Assembly: GCA_902514625.1 (NCBI GenBank)
Contig: CABXRK010000014.1
Coordinates: 1 to 43,174 of the forward strand
DNA from: an uncultured Bacteroidota bacterium
GTDB lineage: Bacteria; Bacteroidota; Bacteroidia; Flavobacteriales; Flavobacteriaceae
Length of the DNA: 43,174 bases
Direction of reading: 5' to 3'
Shown here: positions 1 through 19,359 of the stretch, piece after piece
How positions within the stretch are numbered: position 1 is the stretch's first letter
Layout of the letters: every line of letters begins with the position of its first letter
Notes under the pieces: generated by a model
Told to the model about the DNA's origin: nothing
Database searches by the model: none
The model's input: the letters and a program-made list of their open reading frames with translations, nothing else
Translations under genes and position numbers: made by a program

Positions 1-1950
1 ACAGGAACAGTTGGTTCAATTAAACCTGGAGGAGTACTTTCTTATCAATGGTATAAATCTACTGATGGCGCATCCTGGTCTCCTATTGGTGTTGGTGGTA
101 TTTCTCAAACATATACTCCTACAGCAGGAATAGTTGTTAACACTTTTTATCAAAGAAGAACTGTGAGTACTCGTGGAGCTAGTGTTTGTGATGAGTCAAG
201 TAATACTCAATTAGTAGCTATTTCTGGTGGTCCGATTTCAAATATTGTGGCATTTCCAGGTGCTATTACAGAAACGAATACTATAACCACATGTCTTGGA
301 GAAACTATACAATTTAATGCTTCAGGGGGCATCACTTATGAATTTCTTGTTGGCGGAGTAACTGTTCGTGCACGTTCTGCTGTAAGCACTTATACTTCTA
401 GTGTTTTAATTTCTGGTAATAAGGTAACAGTTAATAGTTATAATGCTGCAGGATGTGCTGTAGAATCGGATCCTATTAATATTAGTATTGCAGCAGTTCC
501 ATCAACTCTTCTTAATTCTTCATTAGCAGATGATATTACTTTTTGTACCGGTGAAAGTGTACTTTTCACAGCTGAGTCAGATATTGCTGCTACTAATTTT
601 ACATTTGCTGTTAATGGTGTCCCTAAGCAGGGTCCCAGTCTAACATCTACATATACTACTAGTGCATTAAATAATACTGATATAGTTAGTGTCACGTATA
701 CAACTCCTTCAGGTTGTAGTGTTTCAAAGGCACTTACTATGGTTGAAAATATTATTACTACTGCTGGTACTATTAGCCCAACTGTTAGAATAACAATATG
801 TTCTGGAGATACTCCTCCTAAGCTTTCTAGTACTGCGTTACCGACAGTTTCGGGTGCAACATCTTATAGTTGGTATACTTCTACAGATACTATAAATTGG
901 CAGGCTATTGCTTCTACTGATAGTCCTTCTTATTCACCAGGATCTTTAGATCAGACATCTTATTTTAAAAGGCAAGTTAGAAGCACTCTTAATGCTAAAG
1001 TCTGTACTGCTGACAGTAATGTTGTTGAAGTTTTTGTTACTGCCCCAATTACTGGTCTGGGGGGAACCATTTCAAATAATAATGAAGTATTATGTAAGGG
1101 CGATATTCCAACTAATTTAACTCTTGTTGGGGGTGCAGTTGGTGCTCTTATAACTTATCAATGGCAAAATAAGGAAGAAGGTGGTGCATGGACTAATATA
1201 CCAGGAGCAACCTCACTAAATCTTACTTTTTCCGCTGGAGTTAGTGAAACATACAGATATAGAAGAAAAGCTTTTGCTGCTGGTTCCGCTTCTTGTGAAG
1301 CAATTAGTGATGAACATTTAGTAACCGTTAATTCTATTAATGCAGGAACATTGGATCCTAATCTTTCTGCTAGTTATTGTTATGGAAATACAGCTCCTTC
1401 AATTGTTAGTTCTCCTAGCGGTGGAAGCCCTTTGGATGCTACTGGAAATGGAACTATAACATATCAATGGCAACAATCATTAAACAATGCTGTTTGGACT
1501 GATATTGCTGGGGAAATATCAGTTTCGCTTAATCCTCCAGCATTAATACAAACTACATATTATAGAAGGAAAGCAATCAGCAGTCTTTTTGATCCATCTT
1601 CTGCTTCAATTAAGATTTGTGAAGGTCTTACAAATACAATTATGATTACAATATTACCAGAATTAAGTAATGGGAATTTGTTAGCCGATCAAGATATATG
1701 TTCAAATGATTTACCAGATTCTATTCAACTAGTTGGGGCACCATCAATTTCAACATCTATAACATATCAATGGCAGAGATCAACAGACAAAACAAATTGG
1801 ACTACTATAGCGGGTCAATCTGCAGCTGTTTTACCTTTTCCTGCTGCTGCGGCACATAATCCTACATTTCCACAAACTTATTATAGAGCGCAAATTGTTT
1901 ATACTGGAGCTCCTGATCCTGTTGAAGTAGAAAAAACTTCTGTAAGACTA
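1..1950 (+). repeat. Ig-like protein repeats with YQWQ core, about 100-residue period
   Basis: Within the adhesin, the core Y(Q/S)W(Q/Y) occurs at about 43, 865, 1156, 1462 and 1765. The last four are spaced 291, 306 and 303 bases apart. Each unit has a Cys-containing start (for example CSGDTPP, CKGDIP, CYGNTAP, CSNDLP), the YQW core, a downstream W..I.G segment and a YYRR-like strand. Between the first and second cores (about 280-760) lie two related units of a different type, with C.GE....A and VNG motifs and a GC near the end. The copies are diverged in sequence, so the duplications are old. Confidence 0.75.
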
Positions 1951-4900
1951 TCACTTCGAGTTCCTGCTGTAGCTCCATCATCAGGTGTAACATATACGAT
2001 ATCCATTAATAGTCAGGATTATACTTTTGCTACTACTGTTGCTAGTAGTACAATAGATCATATTGGAAAAGAGCTTGCAAGATTGGTCTCTGTAAATCCT
2101 ATAGTAAATGCTAGTTATGATTCTACCACTAAAATTGTTGCTATAATAGCCGGTGGAGGCGCCTATAATGTTGCTAGAACATCAGGAGTTCCTTCAATTG
2201 CTGTTAAGTCTGATAGTCCAAGTTCGATGTTAGATATGAAAATATTTGTTTCTGGTTTATCCTCTCTTGCGGTTAAAAATCCTGCAGAAGCTAGTTGTCA
2301 AACTTATTCTGATATTATTGAAATAAAAGTCACTCAAGGGCCTATTCTTAACCAAACCAGCGATCCTCCAGGAAATTTAGCTGGCGCTGGTTATCAGATA
2401 ATTTGTCCTAATTCAAGAATTAATACTATTACTTATGAATTTGGTGGAGCTGCTGATTTTGTAGTTATAGAAAGGTTAAGTACTACTTTGAATGTAACAT
2501 CAACATCTGGAGGTACTGTTACTAATGTGGGTGGAAGAATTTTTGTTTCTGGTGGTACTGATTTTCAAATTTCTGGAGATCCTACATTTTTGTCAGGAAG
2601 CGGAAATATAAATAATTTTTCTATTACTACCTCTTCAACTACAAATGTTTGTGATTCAATAACTACATCATATACAATAGAAGAGAATTGGGATGTTGTT
2701 GCTCCTAGGTATATTTCAAAAAATGCAGGAGGATTTAATTCAAACTTTGTTGTTATTGGAGAAGGTGTTAAAATGTATAATAATACAATGTGTAACAGTA
2801 CTACTGTTGTTTCACAAACTTTCAGTGTTTGTTACGGTTATGCTAGTAAGGCAGATGCAGAATTAGAGTTTGAATGGCAGTTTTCTCCACCTGGAGCTTT
2901 TGGATCAGTTAATTTTGTTCCTGGAACTGGATCAAGTAGACAGGCGACATATTATTTGTCTCCTGGGTGGACGGGAATAGCAAATATAATAGTAAGAGCT
3001 AAAGGCTGTAATAATCTTGAAGGTCCTGATTTAACGGTTCCTATTCATGTAGTTCCTTATACTACACCTGCTGTAGTTCAAGCAACAATTCTTGATACCC
3101 CTGTTGCGATTGAGCGATGGGACGGTTGTATGTATATTGGACCAGAACCTACTTGTCAAATAACACAAGATTGGATTGATGATCTTATTCCTGGAAATAG
3201 ACACGGACCAACAAGATATTTTTCTTCAACTTTAAATACTAATACTAATGATTACGAATCTGTTGAATATCAACTTGCAAGTTTTGCTCCTGATGCCAGT
3301 TCTACAGCCACTTTCCCGGGTGTAATAAATTCAACTACTGGAATAATGACTTGGAACGTTGGTTGGGTTGGATCTTTTAGAGTTCAATCAAGAGCAATTT
3401 CATGTAATGGCGCTCCAACCACTGTTTGGAATGGAGGTAAATTAGTAGATATAGCTCCGTTAGATAATCCAATTGATGGGATTCAATTTGATGCAGCATT
3501 TGGAGAACCAAGATGTCCTATTCCTGCAGCAGGGTTCACATCAAAATTAAAAACTACGCCAGATCCAACTCCTTATCTGATTGATTGGTTTATTGATAAT
3601 TCAACAGCTTTAACTCCTGGAAGTTATGTTGCAACTCCAGTTGCTGATGCTGATGGAACTTTTCCGCTTCTTTCTAATGCTGATAAAACAGTAACGTTAA
3701 ATTGGAATCCTGGTTTTGTTGGAGGGGAAGTTACCATATACGCTGAAACAAGGGATTTAGCTTCTGATTGTCCATCTCCTAAATTTAGCAGAGTAATATA
3801 TATCCCTACAGCTCCTACAGCTTTACTAACTTCTGGAGGTGGAACTAATTTTCAACAAGTTTGTCAAGGTAGTGCAATTAATACGATCACCTATGAAATT
3901 AGAGCTTCTAGGGGTTCTTTTGGTTTTACGCAAGGAGCAACATCTTCATTTGTTACTAGTGACCCTCAGGGTTTAACTATAAATGAAATTGCAACTGCTC
4001 AGATTTCTTCATATACTATTGAGCCAAATGCATTGCATGCGCTTAATGCAGGTGAAGTATGGAATGTTTTTATTAATGGTGTGGTTTCAACTTTTACAAC
4101 TACTGATGCTAATACTGATACTTTAGGGCAAGGGCTTGCGGATGCAATTAATTCTAATACAAAATTAACTTCTTCTGGTTTAAGATCTGCAAATACTCCA
4201 GCTGTAACAGCTTCATATGTTGCGGCAAGTGATCAATTAGTAATAACTGAAAACCCTTCCCATGCGGGCTATTCATTTGAAACTTATGTTAATTCTACTG
4301 ATGCTCAACCGGGAGTTACTTTTGGAACAGCAACTAGTACTCAGGCTATAAGAACTCTTGTTATTGGTGGTACGGTTACTGATAATGCAACTGCTACAAC
4401 TTATGATTATCTAATAATTCCAGCTGTTTCTAGTGGATGCGCAACAACATCTTTTGGAGGAAGTATTACTGTAAATTCAAAAAGTTTGATGTCTTTTACG
4501 ACTGGAACTAATTCTGTTACCATATGTGATAGGGCTGATTTCAATCCAGATATACTTACTATAAGAGCTAATGATGCCACAGGTTTTACAGTAACTGGAT
4601 TACCTGCGGGCTTATCAACCTCAGTTTCAGGAACGGGTCCCATTGAAATTACAGTTAAAGGAAAAGTTGATTTAGGGGTTGCCGTTACAAATGTTTACCC
4701 TGTCGATATTACCCCTACTGGGAATCCTGGTGGATGTGCTGCTGATACAGAAAGAGTTAATGTGATTGTTAATCCAGTTCCTGTAATTGCTGCAACCGAC
4801 CCTGCTGTAGTTACTCAATCAAGATGCGTTAGTAATGCAATTGAAACTATAGAATTTGAAGTAAATAATATTAATTATAATTTAACTACAACGGCTAGTT

Positions 4901-7900
4901 CTTTATTTCCACCTGGAGTTACTGGTCAATTAATTTCAAGACCTCAAGTAACTCAATTTCAAATTGGAGGAACAAGCACTGCGGCTTCAGACACGTTTAT
5001 TTTAAGAATTAATGCAGCTTCTTCTGTTGTTACAACAGTTTTAGTAGGAGCTATTTTAAATGTTGATGCTTTAGGGGCAAAGTTGGCTACTGATTTAACA
5101 TCGACATCTACTCCTAATTTTACTTTTACTTTTGATGCTGCTACTGATTTAATGTCAGTAACTGGACCTGTTGGGATACCTTTTTATGTTACAATATCTG
5201 AAACTTCCGCTACTGTTACTGTGACATCTCCAACAGTTGTAACAACCCCAGCTATTTACAGGATTTCAGGAACACCTTCAGCTGCTACTACTGAAACAAC
5301 ATCATTTATTTATATTTTAACTACTGATGGATTATCATGTAATGGAGCAACAACAGTAAGTGGTACAATTACGGTATCTCCTTTAGTTGGAGGTTCTCAT
5401 GAATCTACCTCAGGAGCTAGAAATCAGACTCTTTGCGATAATAACCCTATAACTCCTATAGTTTTTAATTTAACCCCTGGAGCTGTTGCTATAATTCCTA
5501 ATGGAGCTAATCCTGCCTGGTTAGATATTCAACTTAATGGAGCTAAAACAACAGCAACTGTTTCTACAATACCAGCTCTTCAAAATGTTGGAATTGATTT
5601 CGAGACATCTTACGCTTATAGCTTTACATTAATTGGAGGCCCATGTGGAGCTGATCCAACACCTTTAAGTGGGGTAATAACTCTTAAACCAAACCAAAAA
5701 ATTGTTGTTCGAGCTGCTGCAACAGAGGTTCAAAGTGTTTGTGTTGATGATCCAATGATTCCAATTGAATATGATTTTTATGGATCTGCTGCTTCTGCAG
5801 CTTTTACACCAACTCTTAATTTACCAGATGGGGTAAATGGAGAGTACACTCCAAGAAAACAGATAATGAATGTTAATTTAACCGGTCCTGTTACTGGAAA
5901 TGCAACAGAAACATATACAGTTTATATTGACGGTTCTCCTTTTTCATTTATCACTAGTACTGTTACTAGAACGTTAATTCAAATTGGTAATGGATTAGCT
6001 ACTGCAATAAGTGGTAATCCTGATGTATCTGCAACTTTCACAGCAGGAGCATCAAATACAATAGTTATTACCGCAAGTGTAGCTGGGACTTCTTTCAGTA
6101 CCACCATTTTACCTAGTTCTAATGCCATAACATTATCTCAACCAATTTTAAGAACTAGTCCTGGTTTATTTGTTATTTCTGGGACTCCAACTTCAGCAGC
6201 AACCAATACTAGTTATAATTATTTATTGGTGACTTCCGGATCTTCTTGTGCTGTTGATAGTGCAACAGGAACAATAACAGTAAAACCTAAATCGCTTTTA
6301 ACACTAAGTTCTTTAGCTACAACAACTAATCAAATTTTATGTGATGAAACTGAAATTGCCACTATTAGTTATACATTAAATGGTGGTGCTACCGGTTACA
6401 CAATAACAGGATTACCTAATAATATTCAGCATCGATTAGATAATTCTACAAATCCCCCTGTAGTTTTAATATATGGAACTCCTATTACTGGTGATGTTGC
6501 TGATAGAGTTTATGGATATACTTTAACAACTGATGCTAATCTTGGTAGTTGTAATGAAGATTCAAAAACAGGAAGTATTACTATTAAGCCTAGTGAAAAA
6601 TTAATTATTTCTCCGGCAAGTGGATCAGATAACCAAACAATATGTGAAGGCTCAAATTTAGATCCGATTATTTATGAAATGTATGGAGGTGTAACGGCCG
6701 TTAGTCCTGTTGGGCTCCCTATAGGTGTTTCTACTCTTAGTACATTCACCCAACAAATTTCTAGAATTACATTTGGAGGGACTAATACAAGTGGAATTTC
6801 TACTGAAACATTTAGAGTTTATTTAAACGGAATTGAATTTAAATATGAAACTAATCAAGCAAGAACTCCTGCACAGGTAGCTACAAGTTTAAATGCTCTT
6901 TTAGATGCTAGTCCTCTAGTTTCTTCCTCTATTGCTGGACAAATTATTACTTTAACTGGGACTACTTCAGGTACTGGATTTACTATTAATTCAACTACAA
7001 GTAGTAACACAAATGTAACGATTTCAGATCCAGTAATAGTTCAAGGAACAGGTAAGATTTCGATTTATGGACCCCCTGGACCATCTTCTGTTGCTACAGG
7101 CACGCAAGAAACTTACAACTATACTTTAAATACTAATGGAGCTGTATGTTCTCCAACATCAGTTACGGGAACGATAATTGTAACACCTAAATCTACAATT
7201 AGTATTGTCTCAACTCCTACTCAAATTCAAACAGTTTGTGATGATGTTAATATAACTGATATTAATTTTACTTATTCTGGTGCTGCACAAGGTGCTCAAA
7301 TTTCATGGAGTCCATCTTTACCAAGTGGAATTAGCTTTACTTTTAATAATGTGGCAAAAACGGCAAAAATTTCTGGTAAACCCGATAATCTTAACGTTCT
7401 TGTTCCTACTGATTATACTTATACAGTTTCTACAACAGGTAATCTATCAAATTGTTCGGAAGCTTCAATTACTGGTACAATTACTGTTAATCCAAATGAT
7501 ACAATAACATATGATGCTTCTTCAGGTTCTAGAAATCAAACAGTATGTTCAGGAGCTGAAATTAATGAAATTAGATATCAATTGGGTGGTGGAGCTACAG
7601 GTGCAACTGTATTAGGTTTGGTCTCAGGTTTAGGTTATAGTGTAAATGCTTCAAATGTGTTAATTATATCAGGGACCGTAGATCCTGTAGCAGCACCAAT
7701 AGTTAATCAAAGCTTTACAATTTCAACAATTGGCGGATGTACTCCAGATATTTCTGAGGTCACTGGAGATTTCAATGTCAATCCTGTTTCTGGTTTAACT
7801 CTTACTTCAGGAGATCCTGTACAAGGTTCAGGGTTATGTAATGATGGAACTCAAGAAATCACTCCTATTGTTTATACTTGGAGTGGAGGTGCACAAACTG

Positions 7901-10900
7901 TAAGTATCACATGGTCACCATTTGATCCTGAATTTGATAATCAGAGTTTTGGCGTTCCATCTAAAACATTCCAAATTGCCGGTTCTACAACTGCAAATAT
8001 TTCTGCTACTACAGTTTTCTCATATCAGGTTTCTACTGTGAATTTAAATAGTTGTACTCCTGAAATTACTCTTTCAGGTCAAATTGAAGTTAACCCTAAG
8101 CCTGAAATTAATAAAACTGCTATTGAAGCTTTAGTTACAGATGAAACTTGTTTTAATGCTTCTGATGGAACTATTATACTTCCATCTTCTTCGTCTGCTG
8201 ATTTTGCAAATTTTGTTACTGGTGGGCAAACTGCAGTTAAACAAATAGATCAAATCACATTTACTGGTACATCAACTGTAGGGGATAGTTTTCAAATTAA
8301 TTTAGGAACTAAATCTTATACGGAACTAGTTACCACTACTCCTACTTTTAATCAAATAATTACAGATTTAGTATTTAAAATAAATAATTCGCCAGCTCCT
8401 AATTTAAGTCCAGTTACTGCCTCTGCAGTAGCAGGAAATATAATTCAGTTAGAAGCTAATGTTGCTGGGACTCCTTTCACTCCTGTTGTTAATGTTACTA
8501 GTTCGGATGTTGTAACTTCTACAGTTGCAACTACGCAAAATAATAGGGTTACTAATTATAGTATCGCATGGACCAAATCAGGATTGGCTGAGGCGGTAAA
8601 CCCTTCAGCCCTTGCTTCTGGAACCTATGATTTAAAGGTTACTCTTAACGGTTGTGAGTCTGAAACAGTGTCCTTTACAATTAAAGGAGCTACTGAGTTA
8701 AAAATTAATGATCTTCAATTATGTGGTGGAGCAACAACTGGTGCAATTTTAGGTTCTGTATCTGGTGGAGATGGTGTTTATAATGTTTTCCTATATGATG
8801 AAAATGGAGCTCTTGTTGCTACCCATCCTGATACAGGAACAGCTACTTTTACTTTTACTAATCTGGCAATTGTAGGTAAATCTTATAGAATTTTATTTAG
8901 AGATAATACATGTTTGGATGCCTCAAAATGGGCTGAACGTGATAATATAAAACTTGGAACGGAGATTCAATATGATGCCGCTAAAGTATTAATTGCAAAG
9001 AGTTATTGTGCTACAGCAACAGCCTCAAATGGAAGTATTAAAACATTACAAACTATTGCAGGTGTTCCTGTTTCAGCTTTTAGTGGTGGCACTGGAACCT
9101 ATTCTTACGCTTGGTATAAAGATGGAATTTATCGTGGAAATGGTCCTAATTTGGATGATCTTGAAGTTGGAACTTATTCTTTAACTGTTTCAGATACTGT
9201 TCTTAATTGTTCTATAAATCAAGAATTTACAATTGAGGGATATGATGCTTTAAAATTAAATGTTTTAGCTTCATCTGGACCAAATTATGAAGCTGCTTCT
9301 GGAGTAGGTACTACAACAGATGGAATAATAACTCTTAATTGTGAGACTGGTTTTGATAATGGTGTAATTAATGTTGAAGCAACAGGAGGAAAAGGAACAA
9401 CATATACTTTTACTTGGACAAAACTCCCTGGTTTGACTGGTCCAGCAGTGACCGCTGTAGGAGCTTTATCTAGTGCAGAGAATTTGACAGCAGGCTTATA
9501 TCGCATTACTGTAAGAGATCAAGGCCCAGATGGTTTATTTTGTGAAGCCACCAGAAATATTTTGATAAAACAACCATCTTCTCCTTCGGTATCTTTTGAT
9601 AATAATAATTCAAGTTATCCAAAATGTCCTGAGGAACCTTTAATATTGAAATTTATAGTTACAAATGCAGAAGCTGGGTTTGATTATGACATAAAACTTA
9701 ATGGTCAAGATGGAATTGGAGATTATGTTGCAAGTAGTGCATCTTCTGGTACTATAACTGTTACTTATCCATATTCAGATTTAGAATCTGTTCTTAAACC
9801 TATAGCTACGATGTCTTTAATAGATGGTAATGGCTGTGAAACTGCAGATTTTGCGACTAATATAACTTGGGATATACCTGTAAAACCAGAGGTTATATCT
9901 ACACACACAGATACTGATTGCGAATCTGGAGTTTTAGGGTCTATTTCTTTTAATTCAGTTAATGATCTTCCTCTAAATTCAAGAGTTCAGATATCAAACG
10001 TTGCAAAAGCATACAGTTTTGATGGATCATGGGGTGATTTAACAGGTGCAGATTTAAAAGAAAGATCAATTAGCCTGGAAAAAAGTGGAGAATATACATG
10101 GACTATTTCTCTTTCAGGAAGTAGTTGTCTTTCGGCTTCTGGATCTGAAGAATTATTAGATAAAAATCCATCATTAACTTATAGTATATCAAAAACTCAG
10201 GATATTGGATGTGGAAATTCATTTGGAATTATTGAAGTTTCAAACATTCAAAATTTAATTCCACCATTAAGTATTAGATGGGAAGAACGTTTAAGAGTAG
10301 ATGTTATTAATTCAAATCCTAGAGGCCCTGACTCTGATGGAGATGGATATATTAATTTAGATGAAATTTTACAATCAACTGATCCTTATACTAATATAGC
10401 CACTCAGACAACTTTATTAAGTTCATTGGATACAGATGGAGATAATTTAACTGATGCATATGAAAACACATACTCGTTAACTGATCCAAATCTTGCCGAC
10501 ACTGATGGTGATGGCGTTAATGACAAAGATGATGGTTATCCTTTAGATGCTTTACAAAAAGATTTAATTGAATCAGTGGAAGATTGGTTTGAAGTTCCAA
10601 GTTTAAATGGGAATTTAATAGCTTCAGGATTAGAAGTTGGAACATATAGAGCAAGGATTAGTGATGCAAGAAATTACTCAAATCCGATATGTGGAGGAGA
10701 GAATGTTACTGGAGCGATTAGTATAAAAGAAAAAGGTCTGAGGATACTTAATTTTAAAACCGAAAAAACCAGTTCAGATTGTGTTGACCCTGCTAATGAA
10801 CTTCATGATATCGTATTTAATATCGAAAATAATTTAGGAAATAATGCTACTTTTGAATTATCTCTTACAGGACCAAATGGTTCTCCTGATCTTTCAGGAG

Positions 10901-12681
10901 GAACTACAGCAGTATATGTTAAACCTGGAAATGCAGCATCTTTGCATAGGATAAAGAGTCAATCACCTGGAGATTATATTTTGACAGTTAGTGAGACAGG
11001 AACCTCAACCTGTGTTGAAACTTATAGTTTTACTATTATTGAACCTCTGAAATTAGAATATGCCGGAAGCTTAACGTTTGATCCCGATCCTTGTACTGGC
11101 GTTGTTAGTTCATTAAAAGCTGAAGTTTCAGGAGGAGTTCCTTATATAATTAATGGTATTGCTACTTATAATTATGATTGGTCTTATACAGCAAGTGGTA
11201 GTACTTCCCCTGATGCATCTTACATTGGAGAAACGATTACTGACGCACCTCCAGGAACTTATATTTTAACAGTAACAGATAGTCAAGGTTGTGTTGTAAT
11301 AATAGGAGATCCTACTAGTGTTACACCAAATCCAATAGTAGTTTCGTCTGACTCTACTAAAGATATTGTTGTTCAAGGTGGCCTTACTGATAAAGATGGT
11401 AAAACAGTAAAATCTCTTCCACCTGATTGTGATGCATTAACAGAAAATGGTAAAATTAAAATTGAAGTGACCGGAGGTCAGTTACCCCTACAGATTAACT
11501 GGTATATCGAAGATCTTTCAACTGTGAGTGTGACGAGCTCCGGTTCTACTTCAATTCCTGTTGGATATAAATCACTTGACAGTTATAAAAATCAAAAAAG
11601 TTTAACTGATTTATCTCCTGGAAATTATAAAGTTATTATTAAATCTTTAAATACAGTTTCATCATGTGGAAATTTAGTTAACAATTCTATTTATTATGAA
11701 GAGAATATTATTGTTGATCAAAACAGGGAATTATATGTAATGCAAGGTCCATATTTATCTAATGATCTTTGTAATAATGATCAAGGGGATATTACTATTA
11801 AAATTTTCGATAATAACAATGGAAGATTGAATTTCACTTATGACGGATCAAATATAGGAACTTATGATCCAACAGCAATTAGTACCACTACTAATCCTAA
11901 TATAACTAAAATAGATGCATTTACATATAATGTTAAAATAACTAATGCTTCTGAAGATTCAAGTAAAATATTAACAATTACAAATGTTGATAATAATTGT
12001 AGGGTTTCTGTTACTATAGATAAAAGACTTGGTCAAGCAGGATTTAAATATTCAACAACTCAAACTGCAACTAGTAGCGCTAACCCAAATCCTAGTTCAG
12101 AAATTAATGCTAGAGATGAGATTACTTTTGAAAATACATCTACTGACCCTTATGTTAAGTCAGAATGGATTTTTGGTGATGGCAGTTTGCCTGAAATGGT
12201 AGATTCTCTTACTTCAACTGTTACAACAATAAGGCATATTTATGGAATATCAGGGACCTATTTTGCTACTTTAAGAGTTTATAATTCTGTTGAATGTTAT
12301 TCTGAATTTACACAAGAAATTAAAGTTGGTAAAGGATATAATATCTTAGTTCCAAATGCTTTTACACCTTACGATGACAATAAAGTAAATGATATATTTC
12401 GTCCAATTTTCACAGGTTTTAAAACCATGAACTTTTCAGTTTATGATTATAGAGGGAATTTAATTTATTTTGAAAGCGATACCGATGTAACAATTAATGA
12501 TGGTGTTTGTGGTGTAGATAAAAAGAATCCAATTGAAATATGTGGATGGGATGGATTATTTAAAGGAAAAGAACATTTTTCTCCTTATTATATTTATACG
12601 GCTGTTGGTGAAGTTTCAACTACTGATCCATCAAAAAATAAAGAAATAGTAAAAAGTGGAACCTTTGTATTAATAAGATGA
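1..12681 (+). CDS. Giant multi-repeat surface adhesin with type B (gliding-motility-associated) C-terminal domain, 5' partial
   Basis: The frame is open from base 1 to the stop at 12679-12681, so the start lies upstream of the window; 4226 residues are visible. A GTG at 163 is only an internal codon, because homologous Ig-like sequence (a YQWY motif near base 43) precedes it. Order of modules: Ig-like units with YQW..W..I cores about every 100 residues (1-1950); mixed units including three W-(N)PG-F/W-V/T-G modules (2850-3800); a four-fold super-repeat (3853-7536) plus two plain units; SprB-like units with GTY..TV.D..C endings (8100-11750); an Asp-rich DxDGDG segment (10318-10560); a PKD-like domain with FGDG (about 12046-12330); and a C-terminal domain starting LVPNAFTP and ending in TFVLIR. 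That end is the signature of type IX secretion cargo, so the protein is probably exported and attached at the cell surface for adhesion or gliding. Ligand unknown. It is followed directly by a PorP/SprF gene, as for sprB/sprF of Flavobacterium. Confidence 0.93.
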   Translation, partial: TGTVGSIKPGGVLSYQWYKSTDGASWSPIGVGGISQTYTPTAGIVVNTFYQRRTVSTRGASVCDESSNTQLVAISGGPISNIVAFPGAITETNTITTCLGETIQFNASGGITYEFLVGGVTVRARSAVSTYTSSVLISGNKVTVNSYNAAGCAVESDPINISIAAVPSTLLNSSLADDITFCTGESVLFTAESDIAATNFTFAVNGVPKQGPSLTSTYTTSALNNTDIVSVTYTTPSGCSVSKALTMVENIITTAGTISPTVRITICSGDTPPKLSSTALPTVSGATSYSWYTSTDTINWQAIASTDSPSYSPGSLDQTSYFKRQVRSTLNAKVCTADSNVVEVFVTAPITGLGGTISNNNEVLCKGDIPTNLTLVGGAVGALITYQWQNKEEGGAWTNIPGATSLNLTFSAGVSETYRYRRKAFAAGSASCEAISDEHLVTVNSINAGTLDPNLSASYCYGNTAPSIVSSPSGGSPLDATGNGTITYQWQQSLNNAVWTDIAGEISVSLNPPALIQTTYYRRKAISSLFDPSSASIKICEGLTNTIMITILPELSNGNLLADQDICSNDLPDSIQLVGAPSISTSITYQWQRSTDKTNWTTIAGQSAAVLPFPAAAAHNPTFPQTYYRAQIVYTGAPDPVEVEKTSVRLSLRVPAVAPSSGVTYTISINSQDYTFATTVASSTIDHIGKELARLVSVNPIVNASYDSTTKIVAIIAGGGAYNVARTSGVPSIAVKSDSPSSMLDMKIFVSGLSSLAVKNPAEASCQTYSDIIEIKVTQGPILNQTSDPPGNLAGAGYQIICPNSRINTITYEFGGAADFVVIERLSTTLNVTSTSGGTVTNVGGRIFVSGGTDFQISGDPTFLSGSGNINNFSITTSSTTNVCDSITTSYTIEENWDVVAPRYISKNAGGFNSNFVVIGEGVKMYNNTMCNSTTVVSQTFSVCYGYASKADAELEFEWQFSPPGAFGSVNFVPGTGSSRQATYYLSPGWTGIANIIVRAKGCNNLEGPDLTVPIHVVPYTTPAVVQATILDTPVAIERWDGCMYIGPEPTCQITQDWIDDLIPGNRHGPTRYFSSTLNTNTNDYESVEYQLASFAPDASSTATFPGVINSTTGIMTWNVGWVGSFRVQSRAISCNGAPTTVWNGGKLVDIAPLDNPIDGIQFDAAFGEPRCPIPAAGFTSKLKTTPDPTPYLIDWFIDNSTALTPGSYVATPVADADGTFPLLSNADKTVTLNWNPGFVGGEVTIYAETRDLASDCPSPKFSRVIYIPTAPTALLTSGGGTNFQQVCQGSAINTITYEIRASRGSFGFTQGATSSFVTSDPQGLTINEIATAQISSYTIEPNALHALNAGEVWNVFINGVVSTFTTTDANTDTLGQGLADAINSNTKLTSSGLRSANTPAVTASYVAASDQLVITENPSHAGYSFETYVNSTDAQPGVTFGTATSTQAIRTLVIGGTVTDNATATTYDYLIIPAVSSGCATTSFGGSITVNSKSLMSFTTGTNSVTICDRADFNPDILTIRANDATGFTVTGLPAGLSTSVSGTGPIEITVKGKVDLGVAVTNVYPVDITPTGNPGGCAADTERVNVIVNPVPVIAATDPAVVTQSRCVSNAIETIEFEVNNINYNLTTTASSLFPPGVTGQLISRPQVTQFQIGGTSTAASDTFILRINAASSVVTTVLVGAILNVDALGAKLATDLTSTSTPNFTFTFDAATDLMSVTGPVGIPFYVTISETSATVTVTSPTVVTTPAIYRISGTPSAATTETTSFIYILTTDGLSCNGATTVSGTITVSPLVGGSHESTSGARNQTLCDNNPITPIVFNLTPGAVAIIPNGANPAWLDIQLNGAKTTATVSTIPALQNVGIDFETSYAYSFTLIGGPCGADPTPLSGVITLKPNQKIVVRAAATEVQSVCVDDPMIPIEYDFYGSAASAAFTPTLNLPDGVNGEYTPRKQIMNVNLTGPVTGNATETYTVYIDGSPFSFITSTVTRTLIQIGNGLATAISGNPDVSATFTAGASNTIVITASVAGTSFSTTILPSSNAITLSQPILRTSPGLFVISGTPTSAATNTSYNYLLVTSGSSCAVDSATGTITVKPKSLLTLSSLATTTNQILCDETEIATISYTLNGGATGYTITGLPNNIQHRLDNSTNPPVVLIYGTPITGDVADRVYGYTLTTDANLGSCNEDSKTGSITIKPSEKLIISPASGSDNQTICEGSNLDPIIYEMYGGVTAVSPVGLPIGVSTLSTFTQQISRITFGGTNTSGISTETFRVYLNGIEFKYETNQARTPAQVATSLNALLDASPLVSSSIAGQIITLTGTTSGTGFTINSTTSSNTNVTISDPVIVQGTGKISIYGPPGPSSVATGTQETYNYTLNTNGAVCSPTSVTGTIIVTPKSTISIVSTPTQIQTVCDDVNITDINFTYSGAAQGAQISWSPSLPSGISFTFNNVAKTAKISGKPDNLNVLVPTDYTYTVSTTGNLSNCSEASITGTITVNPNDTITYDASSGSRNQTVCSGAEINEIRYQLGGGATGATVLGLVSGLGYSVNASNVLIISGTVDPVAAPIVNQSFTISTIGGCTPDISEVTGDFNVNPVSGLTLTSGDPVQGSGLCNDGTQEITPIVYTWSGGAQTVSITWSPFDPEFDNQSFGVPSKTFQIAGSTTANISATTVFSYQVSTVNLNSCTPEITLSGQIEVNPKPEINKTAIEALVTDETCFNASDGTIILPSSSSADFANFVTGGQTAVKQIDQITFTGTSTVGDSFQINLGTKSYTELVTTTPTFNQIITDLVFKINNSPAPNLSPVTASAVAGNIIQLEANVAGTPFTPVVNVTSSDVVTSTVATTQNNRVTNYSIAWTKSGLAEAVNPSALASGTYDLKVTLNGCESETVSFTIKGATELKINDLQLCGGATTGAILGSVSGGDGVYNVFLYDENGALVATHPDTGTATFTFTNLAIVGKSYRILFRDNTCLDASKWAERDNIKLGTEIQYDAAKVLIAKSYCATATASNGSIKTLQTIAGVPVSAFSGGTGTYSYAWYKDGIYRGNGPNLDDLEVGTYSLTVSDTVLNCSINQEFTIEGYDALKLNVLASSGPNYEAASGVGTTTDGIITLNCETGFDNGVINVEATGGKGTTYTFTWTKLPGLTGPAVTAVGALSSAENLTAGLYRITVRDQGPDGLFCEATRNILIKQPSSPSVSFDNNNSSYPKCPEEPLILKFIVTNAEAGFDYDIKLNGQDGIGDYVASSASSGTITVTYPYSDLESVLKPIATMSLIDGNGCETADFATNITWDIPVKPEVISTHTDTDCESGVLGSISFNSVNDLPLNSRVQISNVAKAYSFDGSWGDLTGADLKERSISLEKSGEYTWTISLSGSSCLSASGSEELLDKNPSLTYSISKTQDIGCGNSFGIIEVSNIQNLIPPLSIRWEERLRVDVINSNPRGPDSDGDGYINLDEILQSTDPYTNIATQTTLLSSLDTDGDNLTDAYENTYSLTDPNLADTDGDGVNDKDDGYPLDALQKDLIESVEDWFEVPSLNGNLIASGLEVGTYRARISDARNYSNPICGGENVTGAISIKEKGLRILNFKTEKTSSDCVDPANELHDIVFNIENNLGNNATFELSLTGPNGSPDLSGGTTAVYVKPGNAASLHRIKSQSPGDYILTVSETGTSTCVETYSFTIIEPLKLEYAGSLTFDPDPCTGVVSSLKAEVSGGVPYIINGIATYNYDWSYTASGSTSPDASYIGETITDAPPGTYILTVTDSQGCVVIIGDPTSVTPNPIVVSSDSTKDIVVQGGLTDKDGKTVKSLPPDCDALTENGKIKIEVTGGQLPLQINWYIEDLSTVSVTSSGSTSIPVGYKSLDSYKNQKSLTDLSPGNYKVIIKSLNTVSSCGNLVNNSIYYEENIIVDQNRELYVMQGPYLSNDLCNNDQGDITIKIFDNNNGRLNFTYDGSNIGTYDPTAISTTTNPNITKIDAFTYNVKITNASEDSSKILTITNVDNNCRVSVTIDKRLGQAGFKYSTTQTATSSANPNPSSEINARDEITFENTSTDPYVKSEWIFGDGSLPEMVDSLTSTVTTIRHIYGISGTYFATLRVYNSVECYSEFTQEIKVGKGYNILVPNAFTPYDDNKVNDIFRPIFTGFKTMNFSVYDYRGNLIYFESDTDVTINDGVCGVDKKNPIEICGWDGLFKGKEHFSPYYIYTAVGEVSTTDPSKNKEIVKSGTFVLIR
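2850..3800 (+). repeat. Three-copy W-PG-G module in adhesin
   Basis: Three strands of similar design appear near 2950 (LSPGWTGIANIIVRAKGC), 3352 (WNVGWVGSFRVQSRAISC) and 3700 (WNPGFVGGEVTIYAETRD). Each is a W or L, a G-rich turn, then a beta-strand ending near a Cys or Asp. Spacing is roughly 350-400 bases. They lie between the YQWQ units and the super-repeat and look like a separate beta-sandwich type. Confidence 0.55.
3853..8130 (+). repeat. Four-fold super-repeat of Ig-like units, plus two extra plain units
   Basis: Each unit opens with a Q/V-x-x-C...I..I.(Y/F) motif: QVCQGSAINTITYEI (3853), VTICDRADFNPDILTI (4516), QSRCVSNAIETIEF (4816), QTLCDNNPITPIVF (5425), QSVCVDDPMIPIEY (5731), QILCDETEIATISY (6331), QTICEGSNLDPIIY (6634), QTVCDDVNITDINF (7228), QTVCSGAEINEIRY (7537) and LCNDGTQEITPIVY (7831). 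Spacings are 663, 300, 609, 306, 600, 303, 594, 309 and 294 bases. Long units (about 200 residues) therefore alternate with plain ones (about 100 residues), giving four super-repeats of 963, 915, 903 and 903 bases. The long units differ by an inserted module. An earlier related unit begins at 2395 (QIICPNSRINTITYEF). Confidence 0.8.
10318..10560 (+). other. Asp-rich, probable calcium-binding segment in adhesin (DxDGDG motifs)
   Basis: The encoded segment carries DSDGDGYINLDE, DTDGDNLTDAYE and DTDGDGVNDKDD, matching the DxDxDG pattern of thrombospondin type 3-like or dockerin-like calcium-binding loops. It lies inside the SprB-like part of the protein. Calcium binding, and stiffening of the stalk by calcium, is inferred from the motif alone. 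Confidence 0.7.
12331..12678 (+). other. Type B T9SS C-terminal sorting domain of adhesin
   Basis: The last ~115 residues begin LVPNAFTPYDDNKVNDIFRP, contain FSVYDYRGNLIY and CGWDG and end GTFVLIR. This is the layout of the gliding-motility-associated C-terminal domain (CHU_C / type B CTD). In characterised Bacteroidota such domains direct export through the type IX system and depend on a PorP/SprF partner, which is the next gene here. Confidence 0.9.
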
Positions 12682-13742
12682 TAAAAAAGAAAATAAATAT
12701 TTATTGTTTATCATTTATTGTAATGATTATAAGTGTAAATTTTTATGCACAAGAAGAATATATTGTTAATAATTCAAAATTTTTACAAAAAACAAACCCT
12801 AGTTATTTTGGATTTAATAGTTTGAATAATGTAGGAGTTCTGTATAATACTATGAATGTTAATGCTTATGATAAAATGGATACCAAGTATGTATTTGGCT
12901 CTCTTTCTTTTGAGAATTTAGATTTCAGTATAGGCTTAGATATTAATTCTTTTAAAATTCAGAGCACTGGATATAACACAACCTTAGTTAATTTAAGTTA
13001 TGTTTATAAATTACAGCTTGACAATAATTTATTTTTATTACCAGCTGTAACTATTGGTTTTGGAAGTAGAGGTGTTAATCCAGGAAATCTAATCTTAGAA
13101 GATCAAATAATTGGTCTTGGGATACCATTTGGAACTATAGGACAAGAAACAAACGATGAATTAGTGCTTGCGATGATTAATAAAGCAAATTATTTTGATT
13201 TAGGAGCATCTTTTTTAATACATAATGAGAAGTATTTAGCTGGTATGAGTTTAAAAAGGTTAAATAGACCCAATGTTTCATATGATGGGGAAGATGATAA
13301 TGTGACAAACAACTTGCCTATACAAATCTCAGTTCAGGGAGCTTATGAATTTGATTTAAATCCTTACGAAAGGAGATTTCTTCCTAGGTATTCTTATTTA
13401 TATACTTTTCTATCTTATACTAAACAAGATCAATCTTCTATAATTTTTTTATCACAGGATCTTCAGTTGGGTGAATTTTCATTTGGTTTAAGCCAACAAT
13501 TAGGAACAGGTCTTACTGGCACAGGTTTAACTAATATTGGAGTTTCTATAGGGTTAGCTGTAGAAAATTTTGATTTTGGTTTATTGTATAATTTTCCTAT
13601 TAGAAAACCTGCTACAGTTAGTTCAACGTCAGGTGTTTATTCACCAAGTATTTTTGAATTATTCATTACCTGGGACTTCAGTATTTATAGAAGAAATAGA
13701 AGGGGACAATATAATAGATTGACTACGGATAATTATTACTAA
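12678..13742 (+). CDS. PorP/SprF family type IX secretion outer-membrane protein
   Basis: A 354-residue protein with an N-terminal signal peptide (basic start MIKKK, hydrophobic stretch, likely cleavage near FYA-QEEY) followed by a predicted beta-barrel with many alternating strands. The region with LQKTNPSYFGFN and later SLKRLNRP matches PorP/SprF family style. The start ATG overlaps the adhesin stop (ATGA), so the two are probably translationally coupled. Known SprF proteins are needed for secretion or surface attachment of the adjacent SprB-type adhesin; by context this one serves the giant protein. It ends 7 bases from the convergent acyl-CoA synthetase gene. Confidence 0.9.
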   Translation: MIKKKINIYCLSFIVMIISVNFYAQEEYIVNNSKFLQKTNPSYFGFNSLNNVGVLYNTMNVNAYDKMDTKYVFGSLSFENLDFSIGLDINSFKIQSTGYNTTLVNLSYVYKLQLDNNLFLLPAVTIGFGSRGVNPGNLILEDQIIGLGIPFGTIGQETNDELVLAMINKANYFDLGASFLIHNEKYLAGMSLKRLNRPNVSYDGEDDNVTNNLPIQISVQGAYEFDLNPYERRFLPRYSYLYTFLSYTKQDQSSIIFLSQDLQLGEFSFGLSQQLGTGLTGTGLTNIGVSIGLAVENFDFGLLYNFPIRKPATVSSTSGVYSPSIFELFITWDFSIYRRNRRGQYNRLTTDNYY

Positions 13743-13749
13743 TAATAGT

Positions 13750-15531
13750 CTATGCATATATTTTATCAATAAGTTCTTTATATTTCTCCTCGACAATTCT
13801 TCTTTTAACTTTCATTGTAGGAGTTAAATGTCCAAGTTCAATGCTCCAAACTTCAGGTGTTAATTTAAATTTTTTAATTTTTTCCCATTGACTGAAATTA
13901 TCGTTATAAAAATCAATTTCTTTTTGAATAGTTTCAATTAGTTTATTATTATTACAGATATTTTCAATTTCATCATGTAGTTTAATATTTTTTTCAATAG
14001 CCCATTGATTAACATATTCAAATGAAGGTTGAATAATTGCTGCAGGCATCTTTTGACCCTCTCCAATTACAATAATTTGTTCGATGAAAAGCGATTGTTT
14101 CATTTGGTTTTCTATTAATTGAGGAGCTATATACTTTCCTCCTGAAGTTTTAAAAAGTTGTTTTTTTCTATCTGTTATTTTAAGAAAACCCTCCTTATCA
14201 ATAAAACCTATATCACCAGTATGGAAATAACCATTTTTAATTACTTCGGCAGTCTTCTTAGGATCTTTGTAATAACCTTTCATTACATTTGGTCCTTTAC
14301 AGAGAATCTCACCATCTTTGGCAATTTTAATTTTGACACCATCAATTGGTTTACCAACATATCCAATTTTAAGAGAATTATTTCTAAGATCACTTACAGT
14401 AAGTACTGGTGAGGTTTCAGTAAGTCCATATCCTTCAGCAATTGTTATTCCAGCAGCTGTAAAAACCCTAGCTAGTCGAGGTTGTAATGCTGCACTTCCA
14501 GAACATATAATTTCTAAATTTCCTCCCATAGCTTTTTTCCATTTTGAAAAAATTAGTTTTCTAGCTATGACAAGCTTTAGTTCATAAAAAATACCATTTC
14601 CACGATATGGTTGATATTTTAATCCAAGATCTACTGCCCAATAAAACAATTTTTTCTTGATTCCATTTAAAGTAGAGCCTTTTGCATATATTTTGTCGTA
14701 AAGTTTCTCTAATAATCTTGGTACTGCTGTCATAAAATTAGGGCAGACCTCATTAAGGTTTTCTGAAATTGTTTCTAAAGATTCTGCAAAATGAATTTCA
14801 ACACTGTTATAATAATAAACATATAGAATAACTCTTTCAAAAATATGACAAACGGGAAGAAAACTTAATGCTTTTGAATTTCCTATGTCTAAGGGTAATT
14901 TTTTAGAGCTTGATAAAACATTTGACACGATGTTACCATGACTCAGCATTACCCCTTTAGGTGTTCCAGTTGTTCCAGATGTATAAATGATGGTTGCAAT
15001 GTCTTCAGGGTTCACCTTCTTCTTATAAGAAATTAAATCTTTTTTATAAGAAGAATTATCTTCACTTTTAAGTAAAGTCCATGATTTACAGTAATTTATT
15101 AGATCAAAGGAAAATATTTCTTTGATTGTTGTAATCTCATTTCTTATCTGATTGATTTTATCATAAATAACTTTATCTGAAACAAAACAATAAATGCTTT
15201 CTGAGTGGTTTAGTATATATTTATATTCTCTAGCAGTTATGGTTGGGTATATAGGAACGGTTATAGCCCCTAATTGTAAAATTGCTAAATCCATAATACA
15301 CCATTCTGTTCTATTGTTAGTTGATATAAGAGCTATTTTATCCCCTTTATTAACACCCATTTTGATAAGAGATAAACTTATTTTTTCAACTTCTTCAAGA
15401 AATTGATTAGATGAGATAGAAATCCATTTATCAGCATATTTGGTTGATAGGGTTTTTTCTAGTGGTTGATTATTAACTTGAAATTCTAGAAATTCAAAAA
15501 GTCTAGTAGGATTCATTAGGGTATTTTTCAA
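13750..15531 (-). CDS. Long-chain acyl-CoA synthetase (AMP-forming)
   Basis: A 593-residue AMP-binding enzyme that activates fatty acids to acyl-CoA using ATP. Visible motifs are the P-loop IIYTSGTTGTPKG near residue 187, the adenylate motif EGYGLTETSP, the TGDIGFIDKEGFLKITDRKK hinge region and the KTSGGKYIAPQ motif. Length and motif spelling fit the FadD15-like long-chain group common in Bacteroidota. It lies 32 bases downstream of purL on the same strand, so it may be cotranscribed with it, although the functions are unrelated. Chain-length preference cannot be read from the sequence. Confidence 0.93.
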   Translation of the reverse strand: MKNTLMNPTRLFEFLEFQVNNQPLEKTLSTKYADKWISISSNQFLEEVEKISLSLIKMGVNKGDKIALISTNNRTEWCIMDLAILQLGAITVPIYPTITAREYKYILNHSESIYCFVSDKVIYDKINQIRNEITTIKEIFSFDLINYCKSWTLLKSEDNSSYKKDLISYKKKVNPEDIATIIYTSGTTGTPKGVMLSHGNIVSNVLSSSKKLPLDIGNSKALSFLPVCHIFERVILYVYYYNSVEIHFAESLETISENLNEVCPNFMTAVPRLLEKLYDKIYAKGSTLNGIKKKLFYWAVDLGLKYQPYRGNGIFYELKLVIARKLIFSKWKKAMGGNLEIICSGSAALQPRLARVFTAAGITIAEGYGLTETSPVLTVSDLRNNSLKIGYVGKPIDGVKIKIAKDGEILCKGPNVMKGYYKDPKKTAEVIKNGYFHTGDIGFIDKEGFLKITDRKKQLFKTSGGKYIAPQLIENQMKQSLFIEQIIVIGEGQKMPAAIIQPSFEYVNQWAIEKNIKLHDEIENICNNNKLIETIQKEIDFYNDNFSQWEKIKKFKLTPEVWSIELGHLTPTMKVKRRIVEEKYKELIDKIYA

Positions 15532-15563
15532 TTATATACAAAATAACAAAATAATTTTATGCA

Positions 15564-18500
15564 TTAAAATCTCGAAAGCCAATTGTATGCATTTTTAAAA
15601 GCATTTAGCCAAGGAGAAATTTCATCATTTTTGTTTTTTTCTAAATAATAAGCCCAATTCCAAGGAAAAGTAGACCTTTCTAGATGTGGCATCATAACAA
15701 GATGTCGACCATCTTTATTACATAGCATTGCAGCATTGTAGTCAGATCCATTTGGATTAGAAGGATAATCTTTGTAAGAATATTTAGCAGGTATTTCGTA
15801 GTTATCTTCTTTTAGAGGGAATGAAAATTTTCCTTCTCCATGAGCAGCCCATATACCCAAAGAGCTCCCCTCCATTCCTTTAAGCATTATTGACTTGCTT
15901 TTTTTTATATCAACAGAAGTAAAAATACATTCAAATTTTTCAGAATTATTACGAAGCATCTTTGGTTTTTTATTGTGTTCAGGTGTAATTAATTCCAACT
16001 CAACAAATAATTGACATCCATTACAGACCCCTAGAGATAAAGTATCATTTCTATTAAAAAAATTATTTAAAGAACTTTTAGCTTTATCGTTATATTTGAA
16101 AGCTCCCGCCCAACCTTTTGCAGAGCCAAGAACATCTGAATTTGAAAATCCTCCAACAGCAGCAATAAAATGAATATCCTCGAGAGTTTCCCTTCCTTCA
16201 ACTAAGTCCGTCATGTGAATATCTTTAACATTAAATCCAGACAAATACATTGCATAGGCCATTTCTCTTTCTGAATTACTTCCTTTTTCTCTAATTATGG
16301 CAGCATTAATTCTATTTTGAGAAAATTTTTCTAGTTTTCCTGAGAAATTTTTTGGGAATATATATTTTAAAGGTTGTTTAGTAATATTTTCTTTTCTTTT
16401 TAATGCTAGTTCAGGTTTAGTCTGGTGTTTATCTAGAAGAAAAGATTTATTAAACCATTTTTGTCTCATTTGATTTACTGATAATGAGATTTTTTCGGAA
16501 TGATTTTTTATTAGAATTTTCGGTTTAGAAATTACTTCACCTATTTTGATACATTTTATATTTTTCTTATTATATATTGAAGTTAAATCTTTTTTTGATT
16601 GAATTAGAATAGCAATATTTTCTGAAAATAATGTTGCTACAGTATCAGTTTGATTTAAATTAGTTAAATCTATTTTCAATCCTATATTATTTGTTGAAAA
16701 ACATAATTCTAGAATAGAAGTTATAAGTCCTCCTGCGCCTATATCATGACCAGATTCAATAATATTTGATTTAATTAGGCTTTGAGTAGTATTAAAAACA
16801 TCTTTGAAATAATTTGCATTTTTAATTGTGGGAGATTTCCCCCCTATATATCCAAGAGATTGAGAAAAAGCAGATCCTCCAAGTTTAAATTCATCATGAG
16901 TTAGATCAATGTAAAATAATGATCCACCAGAAAGTTTAATTACTGGTTCAACTATATTTTTTATATCTGAACATTCTCCAGCAGCTGAAATAATAACCGT
17001 TCCTGGAGCTTTGACCTCTATATCAGAATATTTTTGTTTCATTGATAAAGAATCTTTTCCAGTTGGAATATTAATACCCAATTTTATAGCAAAATCAGAA
17101 CATGAATTCACAGCTTGATATAATTTTTCATCTTCTCCTGGGTTATTACATGGCCACATCCAATTGGCTGATAATGAAATTGATTTTATTCCATTTTTTA
17201 AAGGTGCCCAAATTATATTAGATAGAGCTTTACCAATAGAATTAATTGAGCCGTGTCTCGGGTTTATAAGACTAGTTAAAGGGGAATGACCAATTGAAGT
17301 TGCTACGCCATGATTTCCTTTAAAATCAAGCGCCATTACTCCACAATTACTAAGAGGTAATTGAAGTTCCCCAACACATTGTTGTTGAGCAACTTTACCA
17401 GTTACACACCTATCTACTTTATTTGTTAGCCAATCTTTACATGCAACACTTTCCAATTCAAGAACATTATTTATATATTTTTTCAATAAGCTACTATCAT
17501 AATTCACTTTAGAAAATAAATTTGACATTTTATTGTCATTCATGATTGTCTTAGGGGAGCTTCCAAAGAATGCTTTTACATTAAGGTCAATCGCTTTTTC
17601 ACATCTTTTGCTTGAATCAAAAGTAAAATGATTATCATCTGTGACAACTCCAACTTCATAATATGGAGCCCTTTCTCTTTTAGCAATTTGTTTAATTATA
17701 TTGGTGTTTTTTTTGGAAACAATTAAACCCATTCTCTCTTGAGATTCATTTCCAATTATTTCTTTAATAGAAAGAGTAGGGTCTCCTAATGGTAAAAGAT
17801 CTACATTAACATATCCACCGGTTTCTTCAATTAGTTCAGTTAAACAATTTAAATGACCACCTGCACCGTGATCATGAATTGAAATTATCGGGTTATTAGG
17901 TAGCTCAAAGAGTGAACGAATAACATTGGCTACTCTTTTTTGCATTTCAGGGTTTGATCTTTGAACTGCATTTAGCTCTAAAGAACTTTTAAAAGAACCT
18001 GTATTAGCAGAAGATACTGCTGCTCCCCCCATACCTATTCTATAATTATCTCCGCCAAGGATTATTATTATGTCTCCTTTTTTAGGTCTTTCTTTATGAG
18101 CTTGATCGTTTTTGCCAATTCCAATTCCTCCAGCTTGCATTATCACTTTGTCATATCCAATTATGTTATTTTTTTCTTTATGTTCAAAAGTTAAAATAGA
18201 GCCTGTAATTAAAGGTTGTCCAAATTTATTTCCAAAATCGGAGGCTCCATTTGAAGCTTTAATAAGGATATCTAAAGGGGATTGATAAAGCCAATTTCTT
18301 TTTTTTATTTTTTTCTCCCAATAAGAATCAGAAAGCCTTGGATAGGGAGTCATATAAACAGCGCTTCCTGCCATCGGTAAAGAACCTTTTCCTCCAGCTA
18401 ATCTATCTCTAATTTCTCCTCCTGATCCGGTTGCCGCTCCATTAAAAGGTTCTACAGTTGTAGGAAAATTATGAGTCTCTGCCTTAAGAGATATGACACT

Positions 18501-19211: not shown

Positions 19212-19359
19212 TACTTAATAAATTAAAATGAATTTAAAAATACGTTTTTTAGATAATATTAAAGCAATCATATTTGATTTGATTCAATAAGTTTTAATGA
19301 TTTTATTCACATTTTTTATATTATTATTTTTGATTAATAGTTAATCATAAAACATCTTT

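Follow-up and report, generated by a model that had tools for sequence, protein, structure and literature searches.

A 43,174-nucleotide contig from an uncultured marine Flavobacteriaceae bacterium (NCBI GenBank assembly GCA_902514625.1, contig CABXRK010000014.1; hereafter the window, meaning this whole stretch) opens inside the gene of a giant surface protein, the centre of which is an array of ten immunoglobulin (Ig)-like units of alternating length. We regard it as probable that this protein is an adhesin exported by the type IX secretion system (T9SS), composed of A-B blocks of Ig-like units in which the A units bear a nested domain of the kind found in phage tail sheaths and FliD. The repeat would be a pair of Ig-like beta-sandwich units, an odd one (A) and an even one (B), each from an old lineage of its own, with copying by A-B blocks; four of the five A units would carry one ∼100-residue domain inserted in one hairpin, which would account for the 600/300-base alternation. 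Export of the stalk presumably involves the PorP/SprF protein encoded next to it, and the inserts would hang off the stalk at regular spacing, binding or spacing neighbours rather than carrying the chain. The anatomy of the array, the odd/even ancestry of its units, the nesting, a partial conservation of inserts by position and the fold of the model come directly from the computation.

The window is contig 14 of the assembly (G000:C14) from its base 1, in a genome of 1.25 Mb that is 63% complete. The giant open reading frame (ORF; window 1-12681, forward strand, 4226 amino acids, aa) is open at the contig 5′ end, and its N-terminus, with the signal peptide, is therefore missing at the contig edge. 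A first-pass annotation of this DNA had proposed ten unit starts between 3853 and 7831, with spacings alternating near 600 and 300 bases. All ten are real: they fall in frame 1 of the single ORF, and nine lie exactly three residues before a cysteine, the tenth (7831) lying two before, so that 7828 is the start equivalent to the others. The alternating spacings, and the super-repeat lengths of 963, 915, 903 and 903 bases, follow from the lengths of the units (all on the forward strand; the end of unit 10 was set by hand):

3853-4515, forward strand: unit 1, odd type, long, 221 aa, insert at 3997-4341
4516-4815, forward strand: unit 2, even type, plain, 100 aa
4816-5424, forward strand: unit 3, odd type, long, 203 aa, insert at 4939-5247
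5425-5730, forward strand: unit 4, even type, plain, 102 aa
5731-6330, forward strand: unit 5, odd type, long, 200 aa, insert at 5854-6156, modelled
6331-6633, forward strand: unit 6, even type, plain, 101 aa, modelled together with unit 5
6634-7227, forward strand: unit 7, odd type, long, 198 aa, insert at 6748-7044
7228-7536, forward strand: unit 8, even type, plain, 103 aa
7537-7827, forward strand: unit 9, odd type, without insert, 97 aa
7828-8112, forward strand: unit 10, even type, plain, last of the array, 95 aa

Long units thus measure 198-221 aa, against 95-103 aa for the plain Ig-like units. Each array unit has two conserved cysteines, and another similar unit further upstream (window residue 799) lies outside the run. 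The annotation had described a reversion to plain 300-base units at the end of the array; the spacing is as described, but 7537-8112 is a fifth odd/even pair lacking the insert rather than a set of unrelated single units. The array units (3301-8700) matched no Pfam family at E up to 0.1, PKD (PF18911) was not among the nine families matched by 27 block rows, and naming of the units with Pfam and NCBIfam gave nothing useful.

In alignments of long units with plain ones, the plain unit is interrupted by ∼100 additional residues that follow the strand after ‘LPxGV’ and precede the strand ‘ISGTP’, so that the insert falls between two adjacent strands of the plain unit. Long and plain units had been expected to share a fold. 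Structure and alignment agree on a common Ig host, but the long unit is not simply a longer Ig domain, since a second, different fold is nested within it. A profile of the insert found it in 4/4 long and 0/6 plain array units, and in two other places, each recovered by profile and by leave-one-out search:

1960-2226, forward strand: insert in an upstream Ig-like unit
8233-8535, forward strand: insert in a SprB-like unit, the first one downstream of the array

In all, the protein contains six inserts in three host contexts (residues 654-742, 1333-1447, 1647-1749, 1952-2052, 2250-2348 and 2745-2845), and with leave-one-out profiles each of the six beats all 500 shuffles of itself. The host unit around 1960-2226 was judged Ig-like by appearance and has no Pfam name; the SprB repeat (PF13573) in window 8101-9600 scored 22 bits, below the curated cut-off of 28. 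The SprB-like site is filled in all five relatives aligned with that stretch, among them G053 and G021, whose proteins show no other convincing insert copy; it may be the oldest insert site. By placement count alone, strict alternation is suggestive only (4 of the 210 possible placements of four long units among ten). The pattern goes beyond chance because the insert is present in all long and no plain units, because of the leave-one-out scores, and because it recurs in relatives.

The profile built from six insert copies matched 7/149 relatives, and a 40-copy profile 27/397 genomes of the family and 26/395 of the phylum, the window's own genome being counted each time. The long-unit alignment offered no sufficiently conserved stretch for finding relatives among genome contigs, and the C-terminal region of the adhesin served in its place. 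In another family of the phylum, two very long ORFs contain several insert-profile copies each (L092 in G636, 15320 aa; L091 in G720, 10321 aa). Arrays were counted in nine of the matching genomes, weak hits (including G288, G442 and G297) being left unopened (L marks a unit with a single insert, D a unit with two and p a unit without):

P (the window protein): LpLpLpLppp, 10 units
G342: LpLppppppp, 10 units
G310 (another genus): LpLpLpLppppppp, 14 units
G361 and G161: LpLppppppppp, 12 units each
G055: LDLLLDLp, 8 units
G351: LLLLLLLLLp, 10 units, nine of ten long
G388: LLLppppp, 8 units
G023 (L036): LpLppppppppp, incomplete, ending at the contig end

Across these arrays, plain units measure 90-127 aa, one-insert units 193-230 aa and two-insert units 315-327 aa. 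Inserts occur in consecutive units of G055, G351 and G388, even units included. All eight complete arrays have an even number of units (10, 10, 14, 12, 12, 8, 10 and 8), although the arrays are related and weak unit starts were placed by eye, and these are therefore not eight independent trials. The annotation knew of no protein with this exact alternation, but the G310 array has the same eight-unit start, LpLpLpLp. Five genomes (L047-L051) show the G342 pattern where legible, and for two of them the contigs are those of G068 and G342; unit 2 of L047 and unit 10 of L051 escaped the regular-expression search. The G342 pattern seen again in G068 (L035/L049) was counted once, and partial arrays (the G084 loci L037-L039, L042 and L090) stand outside the nine. 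L089 (G404), where the insert was matched twice but no array unit was convincing, was left unused; L043 (G053:C59), a weak hit in a calcium-repeat-like and apparently unrelated protein, was dropped, and its fragment is still in the iterated insert profile. In G023, units 7-12 form a tail of similar plain units reaching the contig end, and one pair of units, two units apart, is 100% identical in DNA; the tail reflects either recent expansion or a limit of the assembly.

To compare the hosts alone, inserts were removed and a quick tree was built from 90 unit cores of the nine arrays (99 columns; 90 of 96 units, six near-identical G023 units being left out). On this tree the odd/even label changes five times, against a shuffled mean of 30.5, and none of 500 shuffles was as low. 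A starred branch divides it into 51 rows (44 odd) and 39 rows (38 even); the five odd units of the window, plain unit 9 among them, lie on the odd side and its five even units on the even side, and unit 9 belongs to a starred set of 12 rows that are all odd. The outcome was the same with the junction columns removed (5 changes vs 30.5; 0/500 as low) and similar for the 55 plain units only (6 vs 15.3; 0/500). Identity was higher between units of the same parity in 8/9 arrays (permutation p < 0.05 in 7/9), reaching 44.7 vs 27.3% in G351. The annotation had called for a phylogeny of long against plain units; the window's long units turn out not to cluster with the plain units beside them.

Based on these odd/even families, and on two-unit copying visible in G351, the annotation was correct in naming a two-unit block as the duplicated element, and comparison of the sequences indicates that this block is real and old, given the odd/even core families and the even unit numbers of complete arrays. 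The alternation could instead be a coincidence, with inserts gained and lost singly among equivalent units and no two-unit block at all. The presence of inserts outside the array and in even units of G055, G351 and G388 speaks for this, as do the modest figures available from the window by itself (parity p 0.03, and the 4/210 placements). Yet insert-free cores split by parity in nine arrays, plain units alone do so too, and every complete array is even; we therefore hold such a coincidence to be improbable.

The age of the inserts was approached with a tree of 70 rows, limited to matches of at least 20 bits in eleven proteins. Window inserts 1 and 3 group with inserts 1 and 3, respectively, of G342, G361 and G161 (support 84 and 90), insert 5 with insert 5 of G310 (support 86), and the upstream insert at 1960-2226 with upstream inserts of G342 and G361 (support 88). 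Three of the six window inserts thus pair by unit position, and a fourth by upstream region, with other genera. Insert-free odd units of G342, G361 and G161 (units 5 up) group with window unit 9 (96, starred), which suggests that these lineages amplified a block lacking the insert rather than losing inserts.

Had one long-plain block been copied four times recently in this genome, as the annotation's account of amplified super-repeats might be taken to mean, it would explain why the four blocks are alike in length, and two-unit copying is indeed seen elsewhere: G351 units 3-8 share 72-83% DNA identity at two-unit distance vs ∼60% at one-unit distance, with the inserts of its units 4, 6 and 8 close to each other and likewise those of units 3, 5 and 7, and G023 has its identical pair. 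(Long-vs-plain DNA identities are inflated by gaps and were used for these two cases only.) In the window, however, the six inserts do not cluster together (6 label changes, as in shuffles), and its units 3 and 4 cluster with their counterparts at the same positions in four relatives (98 and 96, both starred). Window 1-20000 contains four families of direct repeats of at least 40 bases, three of them wholly inside the ORF, and none at block distance. The block therefore stands and the recent amplification does not; we consider the latter very improbable. Because the window inserts do not cluster together and several group by position with relatives, the super-repeats do not appear to be recently amplified, and their spacing appears to be old and common to relatives.

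A model of the block formed by units 5-6 (predicted local distance difference test, pLDDT, 86.0; predicted template modelling score, pTM, 0.70) leaves the relative placement of the domains uncertain, and the insert modelled alone (pLDDT 89.1, pTM 0.82) consists of strands, one helix and strands. Structure comparison likens the host units to numerous Ig and cadherin folds, as well as to a pair of SraP adhesin domains. The top match of the block model was a phage Mu sheath domain over residues 41-145 (Z 12.3, root-mean-square deviation, rmsd, 2.1, 101 residues), in agreement with the insert bounds 42-142 drawn earlier from sequence. For the insert, phage tail proteins ranked first among solved structures, with cyanophage portal-tail 8i4m at the top (Z 11.6), alongside the sheaths of A-1(L) (8kee; Z 10.8, rmsd 2.3, 90 residues), PhiTE (9cba; Z 10.7, rmsd 2.0, 84 residues) and Mu (9khy; Z 10.5), the T7 tail (Z about 10), flagellin (9atl; Z 9.0, rmsd 2.4, 93 residues), FliC (4nx9; Z 8.8) and FliD (6kty; Z 7.6, in the tool's middling range). 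Foldseek against viral models gave seven insert matches under 1e-3, one of them a named tail sheath.

Profile comparisons point the same way. The PHROG tail sheath family (phrog_165) is matched by 24/40 inserts at E up to 1 (best 4.3e-9) and by 0/24 control host units, and for the one insert inspected the match lies at insertion-domain positions 107-179 of 493. The adhesin ORF was rejected as a phage tail sheath itself: the rest of the sheath has no match, and the ORF is an Ig-like array. In the PDB, the insert profile matched named tail sheaths at 8.8e-4 to 1.4e-3. A tail sheath in a genome of the window's family (L074:1171-2685; phrog_165, 1e-99) was matched by the insert profile, making it a possible place to seek signs of phage-host exchange. 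The phylum search with this profile also returned proteins of 480-600 residues; eight of these and the L074 sheath were tested, and FliD was found in 7/9. Conversely, when a FliD D2 profile made from 12 FliD segments was searched against eleven adhesin proteins, containing 72 inserts, together with their reversed sequences, inserts took all of the first 23 places, above other stretches and reversed decoys, at 17 bits or less. The Pfam Flagellin_IN family (PF07196) matched only 1/40 inserts, weakly (0.0068).

As modelled, the fold of the insert is that of the nested domains in contractile sheaths, T7-type nozzles and flagellin/FliD, and the similarity of the profiles suggests that they probably share ancestry. 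Convergence on a simple fold is the alternative. Its appeal lies in the best PDB profile match being the ice-binding adhesin repeat MpAFP_RII (2.7e-5), in weak matches to protein G and the designed Top7, in Foldseek PDB E-values above 1e-3 and in low FliD-profile scores. We nevertheless find convergence rather unlikely, as the profiles match both ways at corresponding residues while control host units do not match, and the structural matches to sheaths, nozzles and flagellin cover most of the domain at Z 9-12. We would guess that the matches to ice-binding and RTX adhesins are partly compositional.

The C-terminus and the adjacent gene bear on export:

12085-12318, forward strand: PKD domain (PF18911) near the C-terminus, 32.7 bits (cut-off 27)
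12349-12678, forward strand: probable divergent type B T9SS C-terminal signal
12678-13742, forward strand: PorP/SprF family outer-membrane protein gene, its start overlapping the adhesin stop codon

Export of type B substrates involves a cognate PorP/SprF protein, whose gene often lies immediately downstream (PMC12618676). The gene directly downstream of the adhesin is such a porP/sprF gene (PF11751, 68.4 bits, cut-off 22.3; TIGR03519, 87.4, slightly below the NCBIfam cut-off of 90.55). Searches of window 11800-12678 returned no NCBIfam family at E up to 0.01, and a CHU_C (PF13585) search of the own genome found three places, the window adhesin not among them. Export by the T9SS is likely on account of the PorP/SprF partner, the PKD domain and the alignment of the C-terminal region, although below the CHU_C cut-off, with the C-termini of relatives.

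Matching domains of phage sheaths and flagella face outward. By this analogy the inserts would be pendant domains on a stalk, here on every second unit, and from the anatomy a fixed step of about two Ig domains along the stalk would follow. They could, as a guess, bind glycans, one another or neighbouring stalks. An alternative compatible with the same anatomy is that the inserts are ligand-specificity modules and the spacing has no role. Insert positions vary by lineage, three lineages fill even units and some units carry two, all of which would suit such modules; however, the 40 copies have no invariant column and a single nearly invariant glycine, and hence show no sign of a common binding or active site, and no enzyme family stood out in profile searches of the inserts. 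We view this alternative as tenable but on the unlikely side.

Several observations weigh against our overall proposal. In the core tree eight rows are misplaced with respect to the main branch: even units, four from G351 (in a starred group of their own), two from G055 and one from G310, together with unit 5 of G023, an odd one. Parity is weak within the window (28.1 vs 25.7% identity), not significant in G342 (p 0.23) and absent in G023 (p 0.76). The trees rest on 97-99 columns, with 44/87 inner branches of the core tree open; shuffled labels ignore kinship, so orthologues inflate the parity contrasts, and kinship of the arrays and starts set by eye likewise affect the even counts. In G310, inserts 1 and 3 fall apart from window inserts 1 and 3 in the insert tree, and window insert 7 and the SprB-unit insert have no supported place there. 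Foldseek found no insert match in the PDB below 1e-3, the best PDB profile match was an ice-binding adhesin repeat and not a sheath, and the CHU_C score of the C-terminus (13.3 bits) is below the Pfam cut-off of 27.

Comparison with known systems places the protein among giant adhesins, a known class, of which A-B pairs with a nested sheath/FliD-type domain are a new variant. Like the SprB-type substrates of Flavobacterium johnsoniae in the part of PMC12618676 available, it is a very large surface protein with a SprB-like repeat, PKD, a type-B-like C-terminus and a porP/sprF gene directly downstream. It differs in that its C-terminus is under the CHU_C cut-off, and A-B Ig pairs with nested domains go unmentioned for type B substrates in that part of the source. 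BAP-type adhesins have arrays of 80-110 aa Ig-like modules, as here, and a nested second fold is not mentioned in the opening of the abstract of PMC4647330. The insertion domain of phage sheaths (phrog_165; Mu, A-1(L), PhiTE, Milano) has the same fold, length and profile positions and is nested too, but in a sheath instead of an Ig-like adhesin unit. FliD D2/D3 and the outer domains of flagellin (PF07196, in FliD between FliD_N and FliD_C) have the same fold and reciprocal profile matches. A phage-flagellum link for this fold, joining sheath or capsid domains to FliD, is already in print: as far as the accessible portions of the papers go, the XM1 sheath insertion domain has been likened to FliD (PMC10457771) and the crAss001 gp36 FD domain to FliD/FliC (PMC10172136), and bacterial adhesins are not mentioned there. 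We found no report of a sheath/FliD-type domain in adhesins in open-access text, partially covered, with subscription papers and preprints outside the scope.

Within the genus, 3/4 genomes carry the adhesin, the window's own included. Two same-genus contigs, L044 (G003, 13248 bases), which starts inside the adhesin gene like the window, and L045 (G001, 11497 bases), both fall short of the array; arrays of this kind seem to be places where assemblies are interrupted. Elsewhere in the window (30812-33661), the large subunit of carbamoyl-phosphate synthase is 949 aa long. Its 1058-position model is matched only to 916 and the next ORF is a DUF6580 protein, so its C-terminal domain seems to be absent.

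The odd length pattern of this array is explained by the copying of two repeat lineages together, with a nested second fold in one of them. This offers a model for how very long adhesins may grow in blocks while side domains keep defined places, and it puts the insertion domain of phage sheaths and FliD in a third kind of exposed structure. More speculatively, and in our estimate unlikely as a whole, a single pendant module may have passed between phage tails, flagellar caps and giant adhesins, in each case embedded in a structural host domain; in marine Flavobacteriaceae it would sit on a two-domain ruler with arms at a fixed step, and phage and host may have exchanged it, in both of which it may encounter identical surface ligands.

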